This document shows positions 14,401-24,324 of a stretch of DNA of 64,000 nucleotides, in pieces. The notes beneath the pieces were generated by a model. It did no database searches and was not told where the DNA came from. It saw nothing but the letters and a program-made list of their open reading frames with translations. The stretch's first letter is position 1, and every line of letters begins with the position of its first letter. Origin of the DNA: Methanopyrus sp. SNP6 (GTDB taxonomy: Archaea; JAADCQ01; Methanopyri; Methanopyrales; Methanopyraceae); NCBI RefSeq assembly GCF_002201895.1, contig NZ_CP019436.1, positions 385,456 through 449,455 of the forward strand, read 5' to 3'. The translations under genes were made by a program, and so were the position numbers.

Positions 14401-14970
14401 GTGCCGGGAACAGGCGGGGGTTATCCTGCTTTGCCGAGGGCCCCAACTTTAACGGCTTTATCCCTCGCCATACTTGCCACACTTTCAATTCCATCCCCAA
14501 CTCAAGGGAACCCACAACAGTCGCCTCAGACAGGCAACGGCGAGGAAAAGGAGGTAATATCAGGTATAGGACCGCTTAAGGCGTACTTGATGTCGTACTA
14601 CGGGAGAGACTGGCCACACTATGCTCAATGGGTACACTCCGAGATCAAGGTGGCGGACGACGTCGACGCATACAGCATTAAAGCTATTGACTTCGGGTAC
14701 AACATACTACCTGGAGTGCCGGCGAGAGGAGTCCTAGTAGCGTACGCTTCACGTGGCAGAATAGGACTATCCTTCGTAGCTGAAACCGGTGAAATTTTCA
14801 AGCTTTGTGAGATTCCAGCCATCCTACCGGAAAAAAAAAGAGGGAGAAGAGAGTGCAGATTGGATAGACTTAGATTACATCAGGAAAGAGGATGGTGTTG
14901 TTACAACACTCATAGCCTGGAGCTGTGGAGACAAATTATACCTGTTAAGGATAGACTTGAGCGGATATAA
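14401..14970 (+). CDS. Exported protein of unknown function, N-terminal part of a frameshifted gene
   Basis: This frame starts at GTG 14401 and gives 189 aa. A probable signal peptide (hydrophobic 'LTALSLAILATLSIP') is followed by a Gln/Pro-rich linker and then plausible folded sequence up to 'CEIPAILPE' near residue 145. After the run of nine A at 14831-14839 this frame turns into an arginine-rich stretch that does not look native. The natural continuation is in the +1 frame (14789-16387). Removing one A would join both parts into a single ~660-aa protein. I do not recognise the family. Composition is AT-richer than the neighbouring genes. Confidence 0.6.
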   Translation: MPGTGGGYPALPRAPTLTALSLAILATLSIPSPTQGNPQQSPQTGNGEEKEVISGIGPLKAYLMSYYGRDWPHYAQWVHSEIKVADDVDAYSIKAIDFGYNILPGVPARGVLVAYASRGRIGLSFVAETGEIFKLCEIPAILPEKKRGRRECRLDRLRLHQERGWCCYNTHSLELWRQIIPVKDRLERI

Positions 14971-16387
14971 ACCCCTTAACAGCAGTGCCGAAAATGTCCC
15001 AGAAGAAGTGAAAGAGATAACCGTTCCGGAATTAAAAGAGGTGCACAACATAAATTCAATATCTTCACCGTGGAAGTACAAAGACATTAAGCAACTTAGA
15101 GTGTTGGCACTAAATGACAAGTTTCTAGTGCTCTTTACGGCTAAACGCGAAGATAAACAGACAGAAGAATACGGCTACGATCTACTTTACTTAATAGTGG
15201 ATAAAAATGGGAACTTGAAGATAGGACCGGCAGACTTAGGTTTTCATGATGTGCTAACCTTTCAAGCGAAGTTAATATCAAAGGATGTGAAAAGCATGAC
15301 GCCATCACTTATAGGACTAGCCGTAATGGGGAAATGGCTACAACAAAACTTCGGAGTATGGTGGACAATACTAGGTGTTGAAGGAAGCTCAATAAAGGTG
15401 TTACAAGACCCAATACTGGTGAGTGACCAAGGTTTCAAAGTACCTAAAGTAGAGAGAGCATTAATAGACTTTGGCTACTATAAGGTTGAGGACAATGATG
15501 GAATCACATACAAAATCTTAGTAGTATGGAATGATTGTAGATCCCCCGACATCCTAGCAGACAGGATATATAGAATCACTGGTGCAGGTATCACGTACGA
15601 AGAAAATAAATTATGGATAGTATACGGACAACGACTCAAAGTCGATCTTCATGTGAGTAATGGTAATATTTGGGTTGGAACTACACTCGAACCAGAGATT
15701 ATTAGGGAGAGATGGTATCGAGAATCTGAGGGAGAAGACAATCATATTAAAATAGAGACAGAAAAGGTAGAGATTATGAACTTTCCAATAGTATATCTGG
15801 CAACAATGGGAGGAGCAGGAGGTATTAGTTTTGGAGAAATTGACTCAATTACAGTATATACTAGTAGGGATAAGGATGGAAGAGCGTACTTTGTGGTTGA
15901 CGCTTCAGTTAAAATTCCGGACACTGCAGTATCCGGAAATCTGTCGTGGGTTCACTACGGTTGTTTTGAACTTGGTAGAGAGACATATGGCTTCGACGTG
16001 TTATCAGTTCCTGTACCAGTAGATCCAGATTATGGAACTGTCGCGACTGAAGTCGGAACGTCAACAAAAAAATTGTACATAATTTATCCAATATTTAACG
16101 CTAATGGTGTCGACGCTATACCAGTGCCGCAAAGTAATAAATATCCTGACTTGCAAAACATATCAACAAATATTGAAGAGAAGATGATCATACCAGTAAG
16201 CCACGTGTTTTTATGTGACACAATCCAGTTTGATGAAGTGTATAAGATAGGTATATGTAGAGACCAAATTAATGTAAAATCAGTATCACTACATGACGGG
16301 GTAGTAGTCGAAGGGTTTATTGAAAGGAGCTCAGATGGAAAAAATAGAATTCTTATCGATGATGATCACAGTGCCGTTCGTATGTGA
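14789..16387 (+). CDS. Exported protein of unknown function, C-terminal part of a frameshifted gene
   Basis: The frame is open from GTG 14789, but native-looking sequence begins after the A-run with 'EGEESADWIDLDYIRKEDG'. About 515 residues follow with regular beta-rich, aromatic and Asp/Gly-rich segments such as 'LYLLRIDLSGY', 'YGYDLLYLIVDKNGNLK' and 'NGNIWVGTTLEPE'. This periodic pattern is reminiscent of beta-propeller or beta-sandwich surface proteins, but no repeat is clear enough to name. It ends 'DDDHSAVRM' 53 bp inside the next gene. With the upstream signal peptide it should be extracellular. The translation is likely only real if the frameshift is bypassed. Confidence 0.6.
   Translation: MKFSSFVRFQPSYRKKKEGEESADWIDLDYIRKEDGVVTTLIAWSCGDKLYLLRIDLSGYKPLNSSAENVPEEVKEITVPELKEVHNINSISSPWKYKDIKQLRVLALNDKFLVLFTAKREDKQTEEYGYDLLYLIVDKNGNLKIGPADLGFHDVLTFQAKLISKDVKSMTPSLIGLAVMGKWLQQNFGVWWTILGVEGSSIKVLQDPILVSDQGFKVPKVERALIDFGYYKVEDNDGITYKILVVWNDCRSPDILADRIYRITGAGITYEENKLWIVYGQRLKVDLHVSNGNIWVGTTLEPEIIRERWYRESEGEDNHIKIETEKVEIMNFPIVYLATMGGAGGISFGEIDSITVYTSRDKDGRAYFVVDASVKIPDTAVSGNLSWVHYGCFELGRETYGFDVLSVPVPVDPDYGTVATEVGTSTKKLYIIYPIFNANGVDAIPVPQSNKYPDLQNISTNIEEKMIIPVSHVFLCDTIQFDEVYKIGICRDQINVKSVSLHDGVVVEGFIERSSDGKNRILIDDDHSAVRM
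14831..14839 (+). other. Nine-A run at the frame break
   Basis: Nine consecutive A follow CCGG. Frame 1 reads GAA-AAA-AAA-AGA and the continuing frame reads CGG-AAA-AAA-AAA-GAG. Such tracts are prone to polymerase slippage, ribosomal frameshifting and sequencing error, so the biological meaning is open. Confidence 0.75.
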
Positions 16388-17768
16388 ACTGACTGACTAC
16401 TTGCCGTACTTAAAAGAGATAGGGCAAGTGATTGGGAGTGTTTATGACGAGAACAGTATTTATAACAAGTACTATAACAAGTACAAGGACGTCGTACAAG
16501 TATATGATATAATGTCAGAGGATATGGAGGACGTATTAATGGGTGAGGCACATTCCGAACTCCAACGATACATTAAGAACAAACTCGAGGAGCTTAGTGA
16601 AGAAGTACGGAATTTCCTTAAATTGTTGATTAGTAAGGCTATATGGCCAGATGAAATTCTTAGACTGATTCATTCTATTTATCTGTACTATTACGACAAA
16701 GATGGTAACTATGACGATACCGAAATCAAACCACTCCTAGTGTTGAAGTTTAGACCAATTAGATTCCATGATTACCCAACTTCCACAGCAAGTCCGGTGT
16801 TGTATGACCTATCGAAACCGCACGACGAATCATACAGCGCTATTGAGATCACAGTGTCATACACGACTGATGAATTCAGCTACATCCAGCACAAGGCGAA
16901 GGTGTTAGTTATGATATTCGGGCCAGGTCGAGAAGACGAATTCGATGAACTTACCCCGCTGTCCGGATTTGCATATTGCAACGATCACAGCGTTGGATCA
17001 CGGAATGTTTGTTTGTACAAAACGGGTCGTAGGGTTTCAGTGCGCTTCTTGCCACCGGTAGTTGATGTTATAAGAACTGTAACCAAAATTGCCAAAATTA
17101 TAAAGGAGGCCATGAGAGAGGCGACAATCACGGATGGAATGATGCGAAAGATACGGGATGGAGTGAGTAAAGCATTGAGTGAAATAGAGGACTTAAAAGA
17201 AGAAAATTTACTGAAAGGCCAGGCTGGAATTCCCGGTGAGGTCAAGTACGTTGAAGAGGTACTCAGGCGTATCGAGAAGGACACAAGTTTGAAGATCGAA
17301 GACTTAGCTGAGGGCGTCTCCTCTATACTAAATGTGTTAAAGCGCCTCGTGGAGGGCACATACCATGTTACCATTATATACCATCCATACGGTTCTGTCC
17401 GGCACTATCCTAAGGAGCTACCGGAGGGCGTTATGAAACTCTTCGACAGTATCTCCTACGCGTCGGTCATCTCATGGGTTCCAATCAATGTTAAATGTAA
17501 AGTGCTTCAAATCGTTCCACCGACTGTTTCAGGGGTTGAAAGTACCATTGAGGGTGTAAGAACTTCGGAGAGGCCACTAGTGCAACCACCGAAATTGGAG
17601 CGGGAGGAGAGTGGTGGGCAAGGGAGTGCTAAACTATCGGAGCATCGGTCGTCGGCTCGGAACAAGTCCGGGAGGAGTCCGGTACCGTTGCTCCCGGTGA
17701 TCCCTTACAGACGTTGGCTGTCAAGACCGAGGTTAAGGAGGCGATCTTGTACCCGGAGTGCGTGTTGA
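16335..17768 (+). CDS. Hypothetical protein, AT-rich, probably linked to the preceding exported protein
   Basis: 477 aa if started at ATG 16335, which has AAAGGAG 5-6 bases upstream; the start lies inside the end of the preceding gene, suggesting translational coupling. The protein has helical segments (around 'YIKNKLEELSEEVRNFLKLL' and 'VTKIAKIIKEAM'), a central beta-rich part and no obvious signal peptide or domain I can name. From about 17560 onward base composition becomes GC-rich and the frame yields a basic, low-complexity tail. A neighbouring frame gives a more natural sequence ending at 17779, so the 3' end may be shifted. The last 64 bp overlap the RNA ligase gene tail to tail. Confidence 0.55.
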   Translation: MEKIEFLSMMITVPFVCELTDYLPYLKEIGQVIGSVYDENSIYNKYYNKYKDVVQVYDIMSEDMEDVLMGEAHSELQRYIKNKLEELSEEVRNFLKLLISKAIWPDEILRLIHSIYLYYYDKDGNYDDTEIKPLLVLKFRPIRFHDYPTSTASPVLYDLSKPHDESYSAIEITVSYTTDEFSYIQHKAKVLVMIFGPGREDEFDELTPLSGFAYCNDHSVGSRNVCLYKTGRRVSVRFLPPVVDVIRTVTKIAKIIKEAMREATITDGMMRKIRDGVSKALSEIEDLKEENLLKGQAGIPGEVKYVEEVLRRIEKDTSLKIEDLAEGVSSILNVLKRLVEGTYHVTIIYHPYGSVRHYPKELPEGVMKLFDSISYASVISWVPINVKCKVLQIVPPTVSGVESTIEGVRTSERPLVQPPKLEREESGGQGSAKLSEHRSSARNKSGRSPVPLLPVIPYRRWLSRPRLRRRSCTRSAC

Positions 17769-18775
17769 GTGCGTTGTGAAAGCTTCCTCCATTTCCTAGC
17801 CAGTACGTTCCGCTCACCCTCCAACTTACTGAGGTTCTCGTGCAATATTTTCGTTTGGAGAAGTTGAGCCGTGATCCTCCCGGCGACCTTGTGTGACCCT
17901 CGACGGGGAGGTCGTCCGTCGAACTCCCGCTTCAGGAACCATGGGCACCGTAGTTTGACGGAGTGGAGTTTGTCGTCGGTCTCCGTCATTGGTTTCACAC
18001 AGAGTCCTTCGCGCCAATTCCGTTCGAGCTTGTTGAGGTCCTTCTTCAGGTCTTCAGGATCGGGATCGACGACGACCCGCCATCTGGGTGGTTCCGTGGA
18101 TAGGCGGCGACATTCCCTGAGCTGTTCGGTTCGAGGTGTCGTGATCTTTACGCTCCCCTCGAGCATATCGAGCTCGTAGAAGCAGATCTTGGGTTTGAGC
18201 TTCCCCTCGGCCACGGCGGATTCGAAGTCCGGTTTGGTCTGGTTCTCACGGAGGAAGCGCTGGATGAGTTCATGATCGGGGTCCAACTCGCAGGCTCGGG
18301 AGAACAGCGGTTCGGGTCGGCACTCGTACCGTTTTCCTTCCAGGTACACGAGTTCCGCCGTGATGTCCGAGGGTTCGCCGTCGAACAGCACCTCGGTCTC
18401 GAGTCTTCCTGAGAGCTCGTGCAGCCTGGGTGACTCCTGGGAGAATAAGTCGTAGGGAAGCAGTTCACCTTCCAAGATCGTGATCCGGTCGAATTCGCCG
18501 CGGAGGTCCTCCCAAGGGGGTTCGATGCCGAGCTTCCGGAGGTATTCGTCGGCGTTCACCCAACCCCTGGTGTGGGCGAGGAGGCGGTCCCCTTCCAGGT
18601 ACACGCGGACGTTGGTGCCGTCCAGTTTCTCCTCGATGACTAGCTCGCGGTCCCGGGAGAAAGCGCGGAGGAGGCGTAGTGTAGGTTCGGGTTCCTCGGG
18701 GCGGGCGGCCGCCATGGTCCGCGTCGCGGTGATCCGGATGTCTTCTGGGATTTTCGGAGGTGTTTCCTCCCGCAT
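17705..18775 (-). CDS. ATP-dependent RNA ligase family protein
   Basis: 356 aa. Nucleotidyltransferase motif I 'EEKLDGTNVRVY' contains the lysine that would accept AMP (near residue 49). 'ILEGELLPYDLF' (motif III-like region), 'KPKICFYELDML' and a motif V-like 'EGLCVKP...VKLR' follow. These fit the archaeal Rnl3-type RNA ligases. Such ligases are widespread in hyperthermophilic archaea and their physiological substrate (circular RNAs, repair) is uncertain. It is the last gene of the operon with thiC, 16 bp after the thiC stop. The C-terminal ~60 residues are helical and basic. Confidence 0.75.
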   Translation of the reverse strand: MREETPPKIPEDIRITATRTMAAARPEEPEPTLRLLRAFSRDRELVIEEKLDGTNVRVYLEGDRLLAHTRGWVNADEYLRKLGIEPPWEDLRGEFDRITILEGELLPYDLFSQESPRLHELSGRLETEVLFDGEPSDITAELVYLEGKRYECRPEPLFSRACELDPDHELIQRFLRENQTKPDFESAVAEGKLKPKICFYELDMLEGSVKITTPRTEQLRECRRLSTEPPRWRVVVDPDPEDLKKDLNKLERNWREGLCVKPMTETDDKLHSVKLRCPWFLKREFDGRPPRRGSHKVAGRITAQLLQTKILHENLSKLEGERNVLARKWRKLSQRTQHALRVQDRLLNLGLDSQRL

Positions 18776-18791: not shown

Positions 18792-20081
18792 TTATCGGCG
18801 GTCTTCTAGTGCGTCCTTCAATATCTTGATGGCGCAGTATTCCCCGCACATCGAGCACAGTTCCTTGGCTTGCGGGGGGCGTTCCTCCCGGTAGTGTCGT
18901 GGTTTCTTCGGATCGATAGCGAGCTCGAACTGGCGGTCCCAGTCCAGGTTCCACCGTGCTTCGGCCATTTCCTCGTTCTCTCGACGGGCGTACTTCATAC
19001 CCCTGGCCGTGTCGGCGGCGTGAGCCGCGATACGTGTCGCTATCACGCCGAGGATCACGTCCTTAACGTCCGGGAGCGCCAGATGCTCTGCCGGTGTCAC
19101 ATAACACAGGAAGTCGGCGCCGTGGTACGCGGCGATGGCCCCTCCGATGGCCGCGGCGATGTGATCGTATCCAGGGGCCACGTCGGTCGGTACGGGACCG
19201 AGCACGTAGAACGGAGCACCGTCACACACGCGCTTCTGCAGCCTCACCACCGCCGGTATCTGGTCGAGTGGCACGTGGCCGGGCCCCTCTACCATCGCCT
19301 GTACTCCGGCCTTGCGGCACCTGTCTACTAGCTCCCCCTGAACCACGAGCTCCCGGTGTTGGGCGGCGTCGTTGGCGTCGAGCACGGATCCGGGACGCAT
19401 CGCGTCGCCTAGGGATAGGGTCACGTCGTGCTCCCGCGCGAGCTCCAGGATGTAGTCGAAGTTCTCGTACAGTGGGTTCTCGGCGTCGTGATGGATCATC
19501 CAGGCCGCGACGATGGCACCGCCGCGCGAAACGATACCTAGTGCCCTACCCCTACGGAGGATGTCCTCGAGCGCGTCCAGTGTGACCGCGCAGTGTACCG
19601 TCATGAAGTCGACTCCGTCCTTCATGTGCCGCTCGATGGCTCGTAGCATGTCGTCCTCGTCCATGTCCACTACGGCCTGTCCTCGTCTTGTCATCTCGAC
19701 GGCCGCCTCGTACACGGGTACGGTCCCTACGGGTACGTCCACTGCCTTCATGATCCGTCGTCGGATCTCCCTAGGATTTCCACCCGTGCTGAGATCCATC
19801 ACAGTGTCGGCACCGTGGTCGACCGCCGCGCGGGCCTTCTCCACTTCGAGGTCTGGGTCGCAGACCTCCGGGGAGGTTCCGACGTTGGCGTTGACCTTCA
19901 CGCGGAGCCCTTCTCCTATACCGACGGGGCGGACCTCGTCACGGCGGTCCGCGTGGATCGGGACGACTACCCGTCCTTCGGCCACCTGTCTCGCGAGTTT
20001 CTCGGGCCGGACGCCTTCCTCCTCCGCGATCTTCCGGACCGTGTCGGGTACTGTCCGTCTACATTCTTCCATCAGGGTCAC
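18792..20081 (-). CDS. thiC: Phosphomethylpyrimidine synthase ThiC
   Basis: 429 aa. Motifs 'VKVNANVGTSPE', 'DTVMDLSTGGN', 'VDFMTVHCAVT', 'GDAMRPGSVLDANDAAQ' and 'MVEGPGHVPLDQI' are characteristic. The radical-SAM cluster motif CxxCx4C ('LCSMCGEYCAIK') is at the very C-terminus, as expected. The enzyme rearranges aminoimidazole ribotide to HMP-P in thiamine biosynthesis. The gene overlaps the upstream tandem-palm gene by ATGA. No TPP riboswitch is recognisable in front of it, since it has no leader of its own. Length matches the short archaeal/anaerobe version. Confidence 0.96.
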   Translation of the reverse strand: MTLMEECRRTVPDTVRKIAEEEGVRPEKLARQVAEGRVVVPIHADRRDEVRPVGIGEGLRVKVNANVGTSPEVCDPDLEVEKARAAVDHGADTVMDLSTGGNPREIRRRIMKAVDVPVGTVPVYEAAVEMTRRGQAVVDMDEDDMLRAIERHMKDGVDFMTVHCAVTLDALEDILRRGRALGIVSRGGAIVAAWMIHHDAENPLYENFDYILELAREHDVTLSLGDAMRPGSVLDANDAAQHRELVVQGELVDRCRKAGVQAMVEGPGHVPLDQIPAVVRLQKRVCDGAPFYVLGPVPTDVAPGYDHIAAAIGGAIAAYHGADFLCYVTPAEHLALPDVKDVILGVIATRIAAHAADTARGMKYARRENEEMAEARWNLDWDRQFELAIDPKKPRHYREERPPQAKELCSMCGEYCAIKILKDALEDRR

Positions 20082-21436
20082 GGCGTACCTGCCCCTGCCC
20101 GCGCTGCCATGGTCTTAGCCAATTTCATGAGCTGTGAGAGCAACGTGTTCATTTCGAGGACCAACGGCCGCGGTAGGTAATGCTCGCGGACGTACAGACC
20201 GAACCAAGCTGACGATAACGTTACGAGGACCCAGATCAGGAACCACACCACGGCGACGGGCGCCGAATCGCGGTTCCTACGGGCGGCCGCGATAGGAAAG
20301 TAAACGAAGAACGGCAGTGCTAAGTACGGATGTAGGGCGGTTAGTGAACCCACTATGGCCGACGCCCCGACGGCACGGGCGGACTCGGACGGGATGCGTC
20401 CGAATATCTTGACGGCGTAGTCGGGCGGCTCCACGTACGCTACGAGGTGGGGTCCAAAGCGGAACGCTACGTACGAGCAGTCGTAATCGACGCGTTCACG
20501 GACCGTTACAGCGTTTTCGGCGGCGCGACCCCTCGAGTCCCCTATGCCGATCTTTATCTTGACGTCGTCTCCCGTCAGCCGGCCGACGATCTTGATCGCG
20601 GCCCTCAGCGCCCGACTTTTGGTGGGGAACCGGGCTATTACGTCGTCCCCTCCTCTGCGGTGGTCGAGCACGACTCCTTCCTCCTCGTTGATTACGTCGA
20701 TCACCCTACTCATGATACCTTCTAGGTACCGGCGTCCGCGCTCGCGGACGAGCTCGGAGGACCCGACGATATCGAGGTATAGGATGCGGTCGGGTGCGGT
20801 GTTGGTTCGGCGTGGTAGGGGGAGTGGGTCGCCACCCCGGTGGATGATCCACTCTGCCCCGATCTTGGAAAACGCGGCAAACTCGGAGTCGGCGTGACGT
20901 TCGGCCTTGGCGAACCGTTCGGTGGCGGCGGCCTGGGTGAGGCCGATAGCGGCGCTACCACGCAGCCGCAGTGGGACCTGAGCTGCGAATCGCAGTGCGT
21001 GGAATTTGGAAGGGGCTTCCACGGTCGCTTCGCCCCCAGCGTACTCCAGCACGGTGCATTGGCACTCGTGAGCGAGCGACTGGAGGTCGTCTTCGTTGCT
21101 GTACGTACAGTACACGTACCTGGTCTCGTCCAGCACGATCTTGCTGACGAGCGCCACTTCAGGGTCGTCGTACTTGAACCGTTCTATCTTCGTCAGTCCG
21201 AATCCTTCGCGTCGGAGCTCTTCCGCCACCTCACCGAGCTCGTTGGAGATTACCTGTGGAGCAGGTAGGGGGTATCCCTCGAAGCGCGTTAGTAGCATGT
21301 ACATGGAGTTGAGGGTCTCCACTATCTCCAGCTCCTCTTCGGTGATCGGGTCGTACTTGGTACCACAGGCGACGATCTCTCCATCGACCCGCGGGGAGGC
21401 CGAGAGTTTCACGAACAGGCGTGAGGGGTGGATCAT
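20078..21436 (-). CDS. Membrane-anchored tandem-palm (GGDD) nucleotide polymerase/cyclase-like protein
   Basis: 452 aa. Residues ~218-310 form a palm-domain core: 'ILYLDIVGSS' (metal-binding D222), 'HRRGGDDVIARFP' (GGDD at 262-265) and 'IKIGIGDSRGRAAENA'. This combination resembles class III cyclases, the Cas10/mCpol GGDD palm and archaeal GTP cyclohydrolase III. A second, possibly weaker copy precedes it (residues ~100-190) with 'EYAGGEATVEAPS' and 'GSAAIGLTQAAATERF', so the architecture is tandem palm as in GTP cyclohydrolase III. Two hydrophobic segments (about 356-385 and 391-415) anchor the protein, and a basic tail follows. It starts one base after the stop of an unknown gene and overlaps thiC. 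Product and substrate are unknown: a signalling nucleotide or a pterin/flavin precursor reaction are both conceivable. Confidence 0.75.
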   Translation of the reverse strand: MIHPSRLFVKLSASPRVDGEIVACGTKYDPITEEELEIVETLNSMYMLLTRFEGYPLPAPQVISNELGEVAEELRREGFGLTKIERFKYDDPEVALVSKIVLDETRYVYCTYSNEDDLQSLAHECQCTVLEYAGGEATVEAPSKFHALRFAAQVPLRLRGSAAIGLTQAAATERFAKAERHADSEFAAFSKIGAEWIIHRGGDPLPLPRRTNTAPDRILYLDIVGSSELVRERGRRYLEGIMSRVIDVINEEEGVVLDHRRGGDDVIARFPTKSRALRAAIKIVGRLTGDDVKIKIGIGDSRGRAAENAVTVRERVDYDCSYVAFRFGPHLVAYVEPPDYAVKIFGRIPSESARAVGASAIVGSLTALHPYLALPFFVYFPIAAARRNRDSAPVAVVWFLIWVLVTLSSAWFGLYVREHYLPRPLVLEMNTLLSQLMKLAKTMAARAGAGTP

Positions 21437-21437
21437 T

Positions 21438-22163
21438 TCACTCCACCTCTTCGGGCGTTTTGACGCGCACCTTGTAGTCTCCTTTCTCGACCAACAGGCT
21501 TTCTTTCACTACCACGTACGGGAACTTCAGATAGGCGGCGCGGGTGGCTACGGTGCTGGCTATGAAGCGGGCGAGACGGATCATGGTCGACCTCAAATCT
21601 TCACCCACTAAGACCTCCACTTTGAAGGGGGGTCGTTCCTTCGCTACCTCCGAGGAGTGGAGCGTGAGGACTCCGAACTCTTCAGGACCCACACACAAGT
21701 CGTTCCGAACGAGGACCAGTGGCGTATGGTCGAGATCGAGTTCTTCCCGGGCGGTGACGGCGATCGCTCCGGCTTTTTCCCGTAACTCCCGATAGTTGCG
21801 GGGATCAACGGCGATGAAGCACACGTAACGGTCTTCCTCAGCCACCGGCTCGAGCTCCTCCTCGGCGACAACGGTTTTCACGACGGGGATCTTGCTGAGG
21901 AACTTGTCCAGTACGGTGTCAACACCCTTGAGTGAGAACTCGAGACCTGCCATCCCACCTATCTCTCTGACCACCTCCCTGGCCACACTACGGACGTCGA
22001 GTTCGGCGCACTTCTTCAGGTCGTACACGGGGTAATCCCTTTTGGATAACGCGTCGAGGACCTGGAGGCTGACGTCGGCACCTATACGCTTCGCCTCCTC
22101 GTCCGGGATCCACACCTTATCCTGGCCCGCGTCCGACCTCTCGGCCTCCGTCACGTTCGTCAC
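21438..22163 (-). CDS. Unknown protein coupled to the tandem-palm gene
   Basis: 241 aa from GTG 22163. I recognise no family. An N-terminal acidic segment 'KVWIPDEEAKRIGADVSLQ' is followed by helices ('VAREVVREIGGMAGLEF'), then a mixed alpha/beta region with 'RYVCFIAVDPRNYREL' and 'HTPLVLVRNDLCVGPEEFGVL', and a C-terminal helix plus strand 'YLKFPYVVVKESLLVEKGDY'. There is no signal peptide and no clear membrane segment. The stop is one base upstream of the tandem-palm ATG, so the two are almost certainly translated together. A sensor or regulator role is possible but unproven. It is divergent from the aspartokinase gene with 29 bp between starts. Confidence 0.65.
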   Translation of the reverse strand: MTNVTEAERSDAGQDKVWIPDEEAKRIGADVSLQVLDALSKRDYPVYDLKKCAELDVRSVAREVVREIGGMAGLEFSLKGVDTVLDKFLSKIPVVKTVVAEEELEPVAEEDRYVCFIAVDPRNYRELREKAGAIAVTAREELDLDHTPLVLVRNDLCVGPEEFGVLTLHSSEVAKERPPFKVEVLVGEDLRSTMIRLARFIASTVATRAAYLKFPYVVVKESLLVEKGDYKVRVKTPEEVE

Positions 22164-22192: not shown

Positions 22193-23596
22193 TTGAGGAT
22201 CGTTATGAAGTTCGGCGGTACCTCGGTAGGTACTGGGGAGTCCATTAGGAAAGTTGCGAAAATCGTCACGGACGCAGCGGAAGAGCACGAGGTGATCGTG
22301 GTAGTTTCAGCGATGTCCGGGGTTACGGACGAGCTGGTACGTGCGGCCGAAAGCGCCCCGGACTGGACGGAGGAGGATGTTAAAAACTTCGTAGGGAAGC
22401 TCCGAAGGAGGCACGGAAAAGCCGCTTCGGAAGCGATTTCATCCGATCTAATCCTGCGAGAGGTGATGGGTTACATCGACTCATTGCTCGAGGAACTAGA
22501 GAAAGTGTTGTTGGGACTCAGTTACGTCGGTGAGGTGACCTCTCGTTCGACGGACCTCATACTCTCGTTCGGGGAGCGGATGTCCGCACCAATCGTGGCG
22601 GGCGCATTGAGGGATCAGGGACTCGAGGCGGAGCATCTCGAGGGAGGAGAGGCCGGAGTGATTACGGACGATAGGTTTGGTGAAGCTGAGCCGATACTGC
22701 CCGCCTGTCGGCGGAAGGCGCAGAAGACACTGATCCCCATGATCGAATCCGGTAAAATCCCCGTGATTACGGGCTTCATCGGGCGGACTATCGACGGCGA
22801 GGTGACGACGCTGGGGCGCGGAGGATCCGATTACTCTGCCGCAATCATCGGGTGCATCTCGGAGGCGGACGAGGTGCAGATATGGACCGACGTCGACGGC
22901 GTGATGACAGCGAACCCGAACCTCGTACCAGACGCCCGAACGGTTCCGAAGCTCTCGTACGAGGAAGCCATGGAACTAGCCAGTTTCGGCGCGGAGGTAC
23001 TCCATCCGAAGACCGTCATTCCGGTGAGGCCGGAAAACATCCCGATCCGGGTTAAGAACACCTTCAACCCAGAGAGCGAAGGTACACTGATCACCTCCGA
23101 ATCGGAACCTTCCGAGCAGGTGGTGAAGGCTGTCGCGTCGTCCTCGGACGTCGGCATGGTCGACATCCGAGGTATCACGATGATAGGGCGCCCAGGAGTG
23201 GCCGGACGGGTATTCTCGAGCCTAGGGGAGGAGGGAATCAACGTCATTATGATATCCCAATCGGCCTCGGAGTCGAACATCTCGATAGTCGTTGACCGCC
23301 CAGAGGTTCACCGCGCCGCCCGTATCATCGAACGTGAGTTCGTCGGCGAGCGGGTGGTCGAGAGGGTTACGACGTACGAAGACGTAGCCGTGGTGGCGGT
23401 GGTTGGAGAAGGTATGCGAGGAACTCCCGGAGTCGCTTCCAGGGTGTTCAGAGCCGTAGCAGACGCCGGGGTAAACGTCAAAACCATCTCACAAGGAGCG
23501 TCTGAAGTGAATATATCGTTCGTGGTGGCGGAGGAAGATGAGGCGGCGGCGGTTAACGCGGTTCACAGTGAGTTCGAACTCGGTGAGGAAGCATGA
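22193..23596 (+). CDS. lysC: Aspartate kinase
   Basis: 467 aa. 'MKFGGTSVGTGESIRKV' (catalytic KFGGTS), 'STDLILSFGERMSAPI', 'GFIGRTIDGEVTTLGRGGSDYSAAI' and 'IWTDVDGVMTANPN' define the amino-acid kinase domain. Two ACT domains at the C-terminus ('GRPGVAGRVFSSLGEEGINV' and 'GTPGVASRVFRAVADAGVNV') should bind an amino-acid effector such as lysine or threonine. I use TTG 22193, which has GGGAGGAGGA upstream; ATG 22205 is the alternative. The end overlaps the next gene by ATGA. Confidence 0.95.
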   Translation: MRIVMKFGGTSVGTGESIRKVAKIVTDAAEEHEVIVVVSAMSGVTDELVRAAESAPDWTEEDVKNFVGKLRRRHGKAASEAISSDLILREVMGYIDSLLEELEKVLLGLSYVGEVTSRSTDLILSFGERMSAPIVAGALRDQGLEAEHLEGGEAGVITDDRFGEAEPILPACRRKAQKTLIPMIESGKIPVITGFIGRTIDGEVTTLGRGGSDYSAAIIGCISEADEVQIWTDVDGVMTANPNLVPDARTVPKLSYEEAMELASFGAEVLHPKTVIPVRPENIPIRVKNTFNPESEGTLITSESEPSEQVVKAVASSSDVGMVDIRGITMIGRPGVAGRVFSSLGEEGINVIMISQSASESNISIVVDRPEVHRAARIIEREFVGERVVERVTTYEDVAVVAVVGEGMRGTPGVASRVFRAVADAGVNVKTISQGASEVNISFVVAEEDEAAAVNAVHSEFELGEEA

Positions 23597-24324
23597 TCGG
23601 ACGGCTGGTCGAGCGGTACCTTAGACACGTCACCAAAAAGCGGCTAACCCGCAGACCCACCACGGCGCTTATCTACACTTGCCTCCTCGGGATGAAAGCC
23701 CTGGCCCGAGCGTTTTCCGGGGAGACTATTTCGTCTATTTCCCCAGAACCACTTTGGACTGTTGAATCCGTATCCCTGGTGCGGATTGGAGACTATCCGA
23801 GAAACGTCCTCTGTTCCGAACTGATCTCGTTCCTCGTCCGCGAGTTCGAAGGGGAAGAGAAAGTCGAAGACGTGCTGCCGGAGGTGGAAGTCGAAGCAGA
23901 ATTCCTGGCCCGTGTGGAACGTTTCAACGACCTCCTGTACGAAGACATCGAGCTCCCGTTCGAAATCGAAGGCACCGGTAAAGGGGAACCGGACCTCGAC
24001 CTGCGTTTGATCGAAGTCCTCCTGGCACTCGACGAAATCCCGCGATCCGAGCGGGGGCGATACGCGAAGCCGTTCATACTCGTCTGTTTCGAGACTCTCT
24101 CGGATTACCTCGATGTGCTGGGACTCCGGTGGTCGGACGTCGACACAGTGCGCCGCAAGGTGAGGATTAAAGGACGAGTTCATCGTATTTCGCGGGCGCT
24201 CGCCTATGAGCTCCGTAGGATTCCACGCGAAGGTGAGTTGGTGTTCCCGGTAAGCTCCGTGGACGTGATGCGATGGGAGCGGACCGTGTCGAAGGAGGTA
24301 GGACGTAGGTTCAGGTTCCTGTGA
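23593..24324 (+). CDS. Truncated tyrosine-recombinase-like protein
   Basis: 243 aa. The C-terminal third, 'YLDVLGLRWSDVDTVRRKVRIKGRVHRISRALAYELRRI' region (key block GLRWSDVD) and 'ELVFPVSSVDVMRWERTVSKEV', matches the N-terminal half of the XerA/integrase catalytic domain. The box I arginine expected before GLRWSDVD is replaced by an acidic stretch (SDYLD). The HxxR and Tyr part is absent because the protein ends at 'RRFRFL'. It should therefore be catalytically dead. It is translationally coupled to aspartokinase (4-bp overlap) and overlaps hel308 tail to tail by 14 bp. The stable operon position argues for retention or domestication, but decay cannot be excluded. Confidence 0.6.
   Translation: MIGRLVERYLRHVTKKRLTRRPTTALIYTCLLGMKALARAFSGETISSISPEPLWTVESVSLVRIGDYPRNVLCSELISFLVREFEGEEKVEDVLPEVEVEAEFLARVERFNDLLYEDIELPFEIEGTGKGEPDLDLRLIEVLLALDEIPRSERGRYAKPFILVCFETLSDYLDVLGLRWSDVDTVRRKVRIKGRVHRISRALAYELRRIPREGELVFPVSSVDVMRWERTVSKEVGRRFRFL

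Follow-up and report, generated by a model that had tools for sequence, protein, structure and literature searches.

Does Methanopyrus encode an enzyme that makes a nucleotide second messenger? The question is raised by one gene in a 64,000-nucleotide stretch of Methanopyrus sp. SNP6 (contig NZ_CP019436.1, positions 385,456 to 449,455; this whole stretch is hereafter the window, to which coordinates refer), the host genome being a 1.42-Mb single contig. The gene (20078..21436, minus strand, ATG start) encodes a 452-residue tandem-palm membrane protein, hereafter the palm protein, which we regard as a candidate nucleotide cyclase. A preliminary description, made from the sequence alone, had read a palm active site from D222 and a GGDD motif at residues 262-265 and had proposed a new nucleotide-signalling enzyme. 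No Pfam match and no NCBIfam match to the palm protein was found at E≤5. We aligned 30 orthologues from 18 genera (alignment A3), out of 152 genomes with a match: 5 of Methanopyrus and 147 of the phylum of genome G006, a group which we take, in part from PMC11915815, to be the Methanobacteriales.

Both presumed metal-binding elements read as the preliminary description had them. They lie in palm 2 (residues 208-340; 20417..20815, minus strand, as are all features of the protein): D222, in LDIVGS and at the first metal-ligand position, is encoded at 20771..20773 and GGDD at 20642..20653. D222, S226, G262, G263, D264, D265, K273, G297 and G299 were invariant in 30/30 orthologues, and position 260 was always basic (R in 26, K in 4). 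Searched against the PDB, the whole A3 profile returned six matches at E≤10, all of them class III cyclases (Rv1900c, 1.7e-5; Ma1120, 0.002-0.005; 3mr7, 1.4). A profile of palm 2 alone (A8) gave stronger matches to Rv1900c (1ybt, 4.8e-6) and Ma1120 (2.6e-4 to 5.2e-4), followed by the diguanylate cyclase DosC (0.17), 3mr7 (0.24), a cytidylate cyclase (0.9), the diguanylate cyclase DgcZ (1.4) and three unrelated chains (1.4-1.7). The alignment placed D222 and D264 in register with conserved Asp residues of Rv1900c and Ma1120, namely the Asp of FTDIVGST in Rv1900c and that of the class III GD motif, the latter presumably the second metal ligand of these enzymes. Position 260 fell in register with the Ma1120 Lys that precedes its GD motif, presumably the one replaced in the KDA-to-EGY mutant named in structure titles.

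The same relationship emerged from archaeal genomes. At E≤0.001 the palm-2 profile recovered, in 388 of them, 25 orthologues and three other proteins: PF00211 cyclases in G228 and G442, and the GTP cyclohydrolase III of G039 (1.6e-4). A two-row alignment of these two PF00211 cyclases matched palm 2 at 92.6% in hhalign, again pairing D222 and the GD motif with their counterparts. PF00211 itself had no match in the 30 A3 members at E≤0.5. From these profile comparisons we conclude that class III nucleotidyl cyclases are relatives of palm 2, the sequence similarity being significant.

The protein had also been described as a tandem of palms, and this was borne out. When the palm 1 columns of A3 (residues 94-207; 20816..21157) were compared with those of palm 2, hhalign gave a probability of 98.2 and a score of 82.5, against scores of at most 17.2 for 40 column-shuffled versions of palm 2 and 15.2 for the N-terminal region versus palm 2. 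Palm 1 was likewise the second match of the palm-2 profile in 16 of the 25 genomes with an orthologue, with 0/5 in Methanopyrus. Searched alone against the PDB, palm 1 matched nothing convincing (best, a designed repeat protein at 0.013; Ma1120 at 0.3-1.1). The complete active site that had been claimed holds for palm 2 and not for the preceding copy, since in palm 1 the D222 equivalent (position 111) is never Asp (T, R, E or M instead), and Asp occupies the D264 equivalent (position 135) in only 1/30 orthologues, against T, S or G in 25/30. Conservation in palm 1 concerns other residues: K144, T167, E173, R174, K191 and E195 are invariant (30/30), and positions 131 and 136 are each E in 28/30. 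By these alignments, palm 1 is a genuine repeat of palm 2, a conserved half without metal ligands.

The structural comparison suggested in the preliminary description was made on an AF2 model built from three rows (the window protein and two public relatives), with a pLDDT by ten-residue blocks of 52-78 over residues 221-300, 55-76 over 111-150 and about 40 over 301-350. With this low-confidence model, all 27 Foldseek matches in the PDB at E≤0.001 were adenylyl cyclases, and VIA aligned 112/161 residues of Ma1120 at Z 13.4. VIA also aligned 105/119 residues of the mCpol OptS (9pd0) at Z 11.0 and 2.4 Å, the model reaching a pLDDT of only 52-78 over 221-300, and a 975-residue chain of a type III-B CRISPR effector, presumably Cas10, at Z 10.4. 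In the viral fold library the model had no match at E≤0.001. The mCpol and type III-B effector chains surfaced in structural comparison alone. At E≤10 the PDB sequence matches (6 for A3, 12 for palm 2) comprised neither mCpol nor Cas10 chains, and the mCpol/Cas10 profiles PF18182 and PF22335 had no match in the 30 A3 members at E≤0.5. Of the kinships proposed originally, that with class III cyclases was thus recovered by sequence and that with mCpol by size and modelled fold, while GTP cyclohydrolase III was not the nearest solved relative. Palm 2 seems class III-like by sequence and, as far as the model goes, mCpol-like by size.

A C-terminal membrane region (residues 351-447; 20096..20386) follows the palms. 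At least one hydrophobic segment (19 residues, mean hydropathy >1.6) was present in 30/30 orthologues and two in 15/30, which agrees with the anchor noted from the sequence; the window protein has one, at 394-412 (mean hydropathy 2.16). The low-confidence model places helices at 351-368, 370-387, 392-420 and 423-447, and a table in PMC11915815 gives the family more than one transmembrane segment.

In order to determine how widespread the gene is, we searched sets of genomes. The palm gene was found in 5/5 Methanopyrus genomes and in 147/151 genomes of the G006 phylum (90/91 of the better genomes; 20/20 genera). There was one match in 144 of the 147; G174 has a split gene (two pieces), while G106 and G115 show weak second matches that fall in the membrane region. 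In a set of 394 archaeal genomes, 26/26 full-length matches fell in these two groups; outside both there were three partial matches, two sharing a genus, and the one examined (G479) is a Cmr2 Cas10. No relative was detected in viral contigs by profile search, nor in plasmids or phages by a search with one orthologue. The palm gene is therefore a core gene of Methanopyrus and the G006 phylum. Its distribution fits the two pseudomurein orders; a role in pseudomurein synthesis was nonetheless set aside, as Lupo et al. (PMC11915815), in the text available, judge the corresponding gene cluster probably unrelated to it.

The neighbourhood of the gene offered further indications. In the window, a conserved partner protein of 241 residues (21438..22163, minus strand; alignments A2 and A4) is encoded 1 nt upstream of the palm gene. 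It had no Pfam match at E≤5, and in NCBIfam only a match at chance level, to fructose-bisphosphatase, with 13.4 bits where the cut-off is 395 (E 0.034). Sixteen neighbourhoods from nine genera, mostly of complete genomes, were chosen for reading (13 non-Methanopyrus, 3 Methanopyrus), and the partner gene adjoins the palm gene in 16/16. Elsewhere, L030 yielded no reading frame for the palm protein, and at L003 (wrong frame), L037, L039-L043 and L045 the partner was not detected within 120 bases of the palm gene. Two A3 genomes (L037, L042) are absent from A4. An N-terminal Zc3h12a NYN ribonuclease domain (PF11977) was present in 23/28 partner rows, the five without it being those of Methanopyrus, and its Asp columns 31, 86 and 128 were invariant in 23/23 NYN-bearing rows. 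The structure model of the partner had a pLDDT of 42.

Of the 13 non-Methanopyrus neighbourhoods, 11 carry a phosphodiesterase gene upstream of both the partner and the palm gene, 12 carry NAC upstream, and 12 have argJ after the palm gene (on the other strand in L060). The phosphodiesterase of this group has its nearest PDB kin among CpdA/Rv0805-type enzymes: the closest chains were 2dxl (listed as a phosphohydrolase and presumably GpdQ; 8.6e-11) and Rv0805 (4.2e-10). Its first NCBIfam match was cAMP phosphodiesterase (7e-19), at 68 of 225 bits and thus below the cut-off. Homologues 44-46% identical occur in 5/5 Methanopyrus genomes. A tie between the Methanopyrus phosphodiesterase and the palm gene was set aside, the former being unlinked and of unclear orthology, and the argument from the phosphodiesterase therefore leans on the non-Methanopyrus group. 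The phosphodiesterase tree omits second Methanothermobacter-type copies and some palm-linked ones. NAC ends in a UBA domain, and where the phosphodiesterase is palm-linked it comes after NAC. Beyond the window, in G000, the Methanopyrus phosphodiesterase gene (L083 1399-2741) overlaps a gene for a 177-residue cysteine-rich protein which terminates in a tail resembling UBA (PF19026, under the cut-off with E 8e-4); this tail may have travelled along with the gene order.

We then asked what was already in print. Lupo et al. 2025 (PMC11915815) describe a cluster D made up of OG0001213, an NYN protein, and OG0001214, annotated 'Nucleotide cyclase'. It corresponds to the palm/partner pair by annotation, order-level scope and transmembrane count, and Methanopyrus sp. 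KOL6 is among the genomes of that study. The protein is consequently not new as a family, and the 'candidate new' proposal holds in part: in the available text, cluster D comes without the tandem palm, an active-site analysis, a phosphodiesterase link or a function. What is new is the recognition of a tandem-palm, class III-related candidate cyclase, the family having been in print once by annotation. No further paper on the pair was among the literature matches listed, and no papers were found on MTH178-181 (guessed Methanothermobacter tags). The related statement that methanogens have little known messenger machinery stood only in part. cAMP was identified in Methanothermobacter (M. thermautotrophicus; Leichtling et al. 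1986, as cited in PMC8646023), and di-adenylate cyclase activity is reported for a Methanocaldococcus protein in the background of PMC8646023 and PMC6741144, as far as the text consulted goes. The accessible part of PMC8646023 places very few of the adenylate cyclases predicted in archaea in class III and considers it probable that a class yet to be discovered serves most archaea, and that of PMC8233210 argues against archaeal CYTH proteins being cyclases.

Compared with the class III cyclases Rv1900c and Ma1120 (PF00211), the palm protein shares the predicted fold, the beta1 Asp and GD motifs and a basic residue where Ma1120 has its Lys. It differs in having two palms per chain, GGDD instead of GDG, a compact palm apparently without the region of the transition-state Asn and Arg, and a similarity below PF00211 detection. 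Two ordinary class III cyclase domains were encountered in other archaea, at L105 1951-2619 (PF00211, 5e-23) and L106 886-1674 (1.7e-13).

On balance we give a little better than even chances to the view that the palm protein is a membrane-tethered nucleotide cyclase, a built-in pseudo-heterodimer acting with a phosphodiesterase and an NYN effector. In two-domain cyclases the half without metals contributes to the pocket, and Palm 1 of Cas10 does likewise. By analogy, the two-metal site of palm 2 (D222, D264, D265) would activate the ribose hydroxyl and alpha phosphate of an NTP, and palm 1, lacking metal ligands and retaining invariant charged residues, would complete the other half of the pocket. 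The product would most likely be a 3',5'-cyclic mononucleotide. In most non-Methanopyrus neighbourhoods the adjacent CpdA/Rv0805-like phosphodiesterase would degrade it, and the partner would bind the messenger and gate its own NYN ribonuclease, so that RNA turnover would track messenger level. In Methanopyrus the NYN half is missing, and the other domain of the partner would be left alone. The comparisons show the tandem palms, the invariant motif, the class III kinship and the conservation of the operon. Homology and residue invariance argue for the catalytic half; we infer catalysis itself, its product, the participation of palm 1, control from the membrane side and reception by the partner/NYN protein. 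As to substrate, the non-metal half reads the base in two-domain cyclases, and in the palm 1/palm 2 alignment E131 of palm 1 aligns with position 260. Provided that palm 1 has this role too, Glu at this putative base-selecting position would suggest GTP; as a guess, the protein may prefer GTP and make cGMP.

Several observations weigh against a cyclase system of this kind. In class III enzymes the transition-state Asn and Arg sit after the GIG strand, a stretch which in the A3 alignment is shorter in palm 2 than in class III domains, and the transition-state region seems to be missing; the invariant R174 of palm 1 could be a stand-in. PF00211 exceeded its cut-off in 0/12 genomes and reached the palm protein in G006 only (E 0.163; the other match, in G076 at 0.052, is a different protein). 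CYTH proteins, another candidate kind of cyclase, occurred in 12/12 genomes tested. The palm model had a mean pLDDT of 49.4, its weakness following from the three sequences given. NYN was over cut-off in 0/5 Methanopyrus genomes. The Methanopyrus phosphodiesterase lies outside the palm neighbourhood (3 read) and resembles palm-linked copies about as much as unlinked ones. The second NCBIfam match of the phosphodiesterase, an anti-phage phosphoesterase (2.9e-17, below cut-off), ranks first for the Methanopyrus copy. Lastly, co-distribution of the phosphodiesterase carries no weight, because its family extends beyond the palm-bearing groups, which lack 30 of the 45/197 genomes that matched at E≤1e-20.

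The two palms might instead hold two NTPs and join them, which would make the protein a synthase of cyclic di- or oligonucleotides in the manner of mCpol or Cas10. mCpol/Panoptes OptS and Cas10 palms seem to resemble the palm protein in minimal palm size, GGDD in place of GDG and a two-palm arrangement; the extent of the mCpol alignment, a profile (A1) that weakly reaches a Cmr2 Cas10 (E 1.8e-4), and metals confined to the second of tandem palms, as in Cas10, point the same way. The sequence profiles nevertheless rank class III cyclases first and leave mCpol and Cas10 chains unmatched, no sign of a defence locus was seen, and in PADLOC the sole match of the window palm at E≤0.1 was the cyclase PycC (0.034), with none for the other palm or for either partner. 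We hold such a synthase to be unlikely, if a serious contender. The accessible parts of PMC12657230 and PMC11346440 assign di-adenylate cyclase activity to mCpol and Mn-dependent RNase activity to a CRISPR NYN. An antiviral system of the CBASS, Panoptes or type III kind would share a cyclase-like palm, an RNase and a membrane anchor, and the phosphodiesterase weakly matches anti-phage models (three in PADLOC, the best an effector endonuclease at 1.3e-7). A core gene (147/151) in a recurrent neighbourhood with NAC and argJ, without relatives found in viral contigs, plasmids or phages, makes this reading highly improbable.

Palm 2 could also hold NTP and metal without cyclising, as a pseudoenzyme that signals nucleotide state to the partner/NYN protein. 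The apparent lack of the transition-state region would suit such a sensor, strict conservation could serve binding, and the core-gene distribution fits it. PMC1183210 found the archaeal genomes of 2005 without class III cyclases except for highly diverged, probably inactive open reading frames, which, from the text available, might include the palm family. Invariance of every metal-ligand position in 30/30 would be unusual for a mere binder, and the upstream phosphodiesterase of cyclic-nucleotide type in 11/13 non-Methanopyrus neighbourhoods weighs against a sensor, which we rate as rather unlikely. A hydrolase or ring-opening enzyme of the GTP cyclohydrolase III type (PF05165, 2qv6), perhaps its replacement in Methanopyrus, shares the tandem palms, with GGDN/GGDD and GIG in register. 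In hhalign, the halves of GTP cyclohydrolase III match each other at 97.9%, its second half matches palm 2 at 65.5% and the whole protein gives 33%; the palm-2 profile reaches the G039 enzyme, as noted, and PF05165 is absent from 5/5 Methanopyrus genomes at E≤0.1. True GTP cyclohydrolase III, however, coexists with a palm orthologue in G006, G028 and G048, for which reason orthology was set aside. PF05165 does not match the window palm protein at E≤5; the YGPWTVTP signature, invariant in eight rows of the enzyme (A7; 249-272 residues, without the anchor of the palm protein), is absent from A3; and the creatininase-family protein of G000 falls short of ArfB by cut-off (24.8 of 180 bits). The earlier claim that this is no ordinary GTP cyclohydrolase III was hence confirmed, and a function of that type is improbable. 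Taken together, the comparisons leave a membrane-tethered nucleotide cyclase as the reading that we favour.

Other features of the locus were recorded. In the window, thiC (phosphomethylpyrimidine synthase; 18792..20081, minus strand; TIGR00190, E 1.5e-187) overlaps the downstream end of the palm gene by 4 nt, and thiC follows the palm gene in 3/3 Methanopyrus neighbourhoods fetched; it is perhaps co-transcribed, and we make no claim of membership in the system. An RNA ligase family protein (17705-18775, minus strand; PF09414, 40.1 bits, over cut-off) adjoins thiC. Two neighbouring long open reading frames of 532 and 482 residues (14789-17768, plus strand) had no Pfam match at E≤0.01, and one of 243 residues (23593-24324, plus strand) had only a chance-level integrase match (E 0.24). 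GTP cyclohydrolase III was found in 0/5 of the Methanopyrus genomes G000-G004, and the G000 creatininase-family protein is not a clear ArfB (riboflavin/F420 first step).

What would a cyclase mean for these archaea? It is possible, if doubtful, that the palm protein is the missing cyclic-nucleotide synthase of the pseudomurein methanogens, the hub of a lineage-wide messenger system with a dedicated phosphodiesterase and a messenger-gated NYN ribonuclease. If true, this would account for the Methanothermobacter cAMP reported in 1986. With this core gene, whose cyclase-type metal site is intact and which often lies next to genes for a cyclic-nucleotide-type phosphodiesterase and an RNase, the archaeal cyclase question could be tested on one purified protein.

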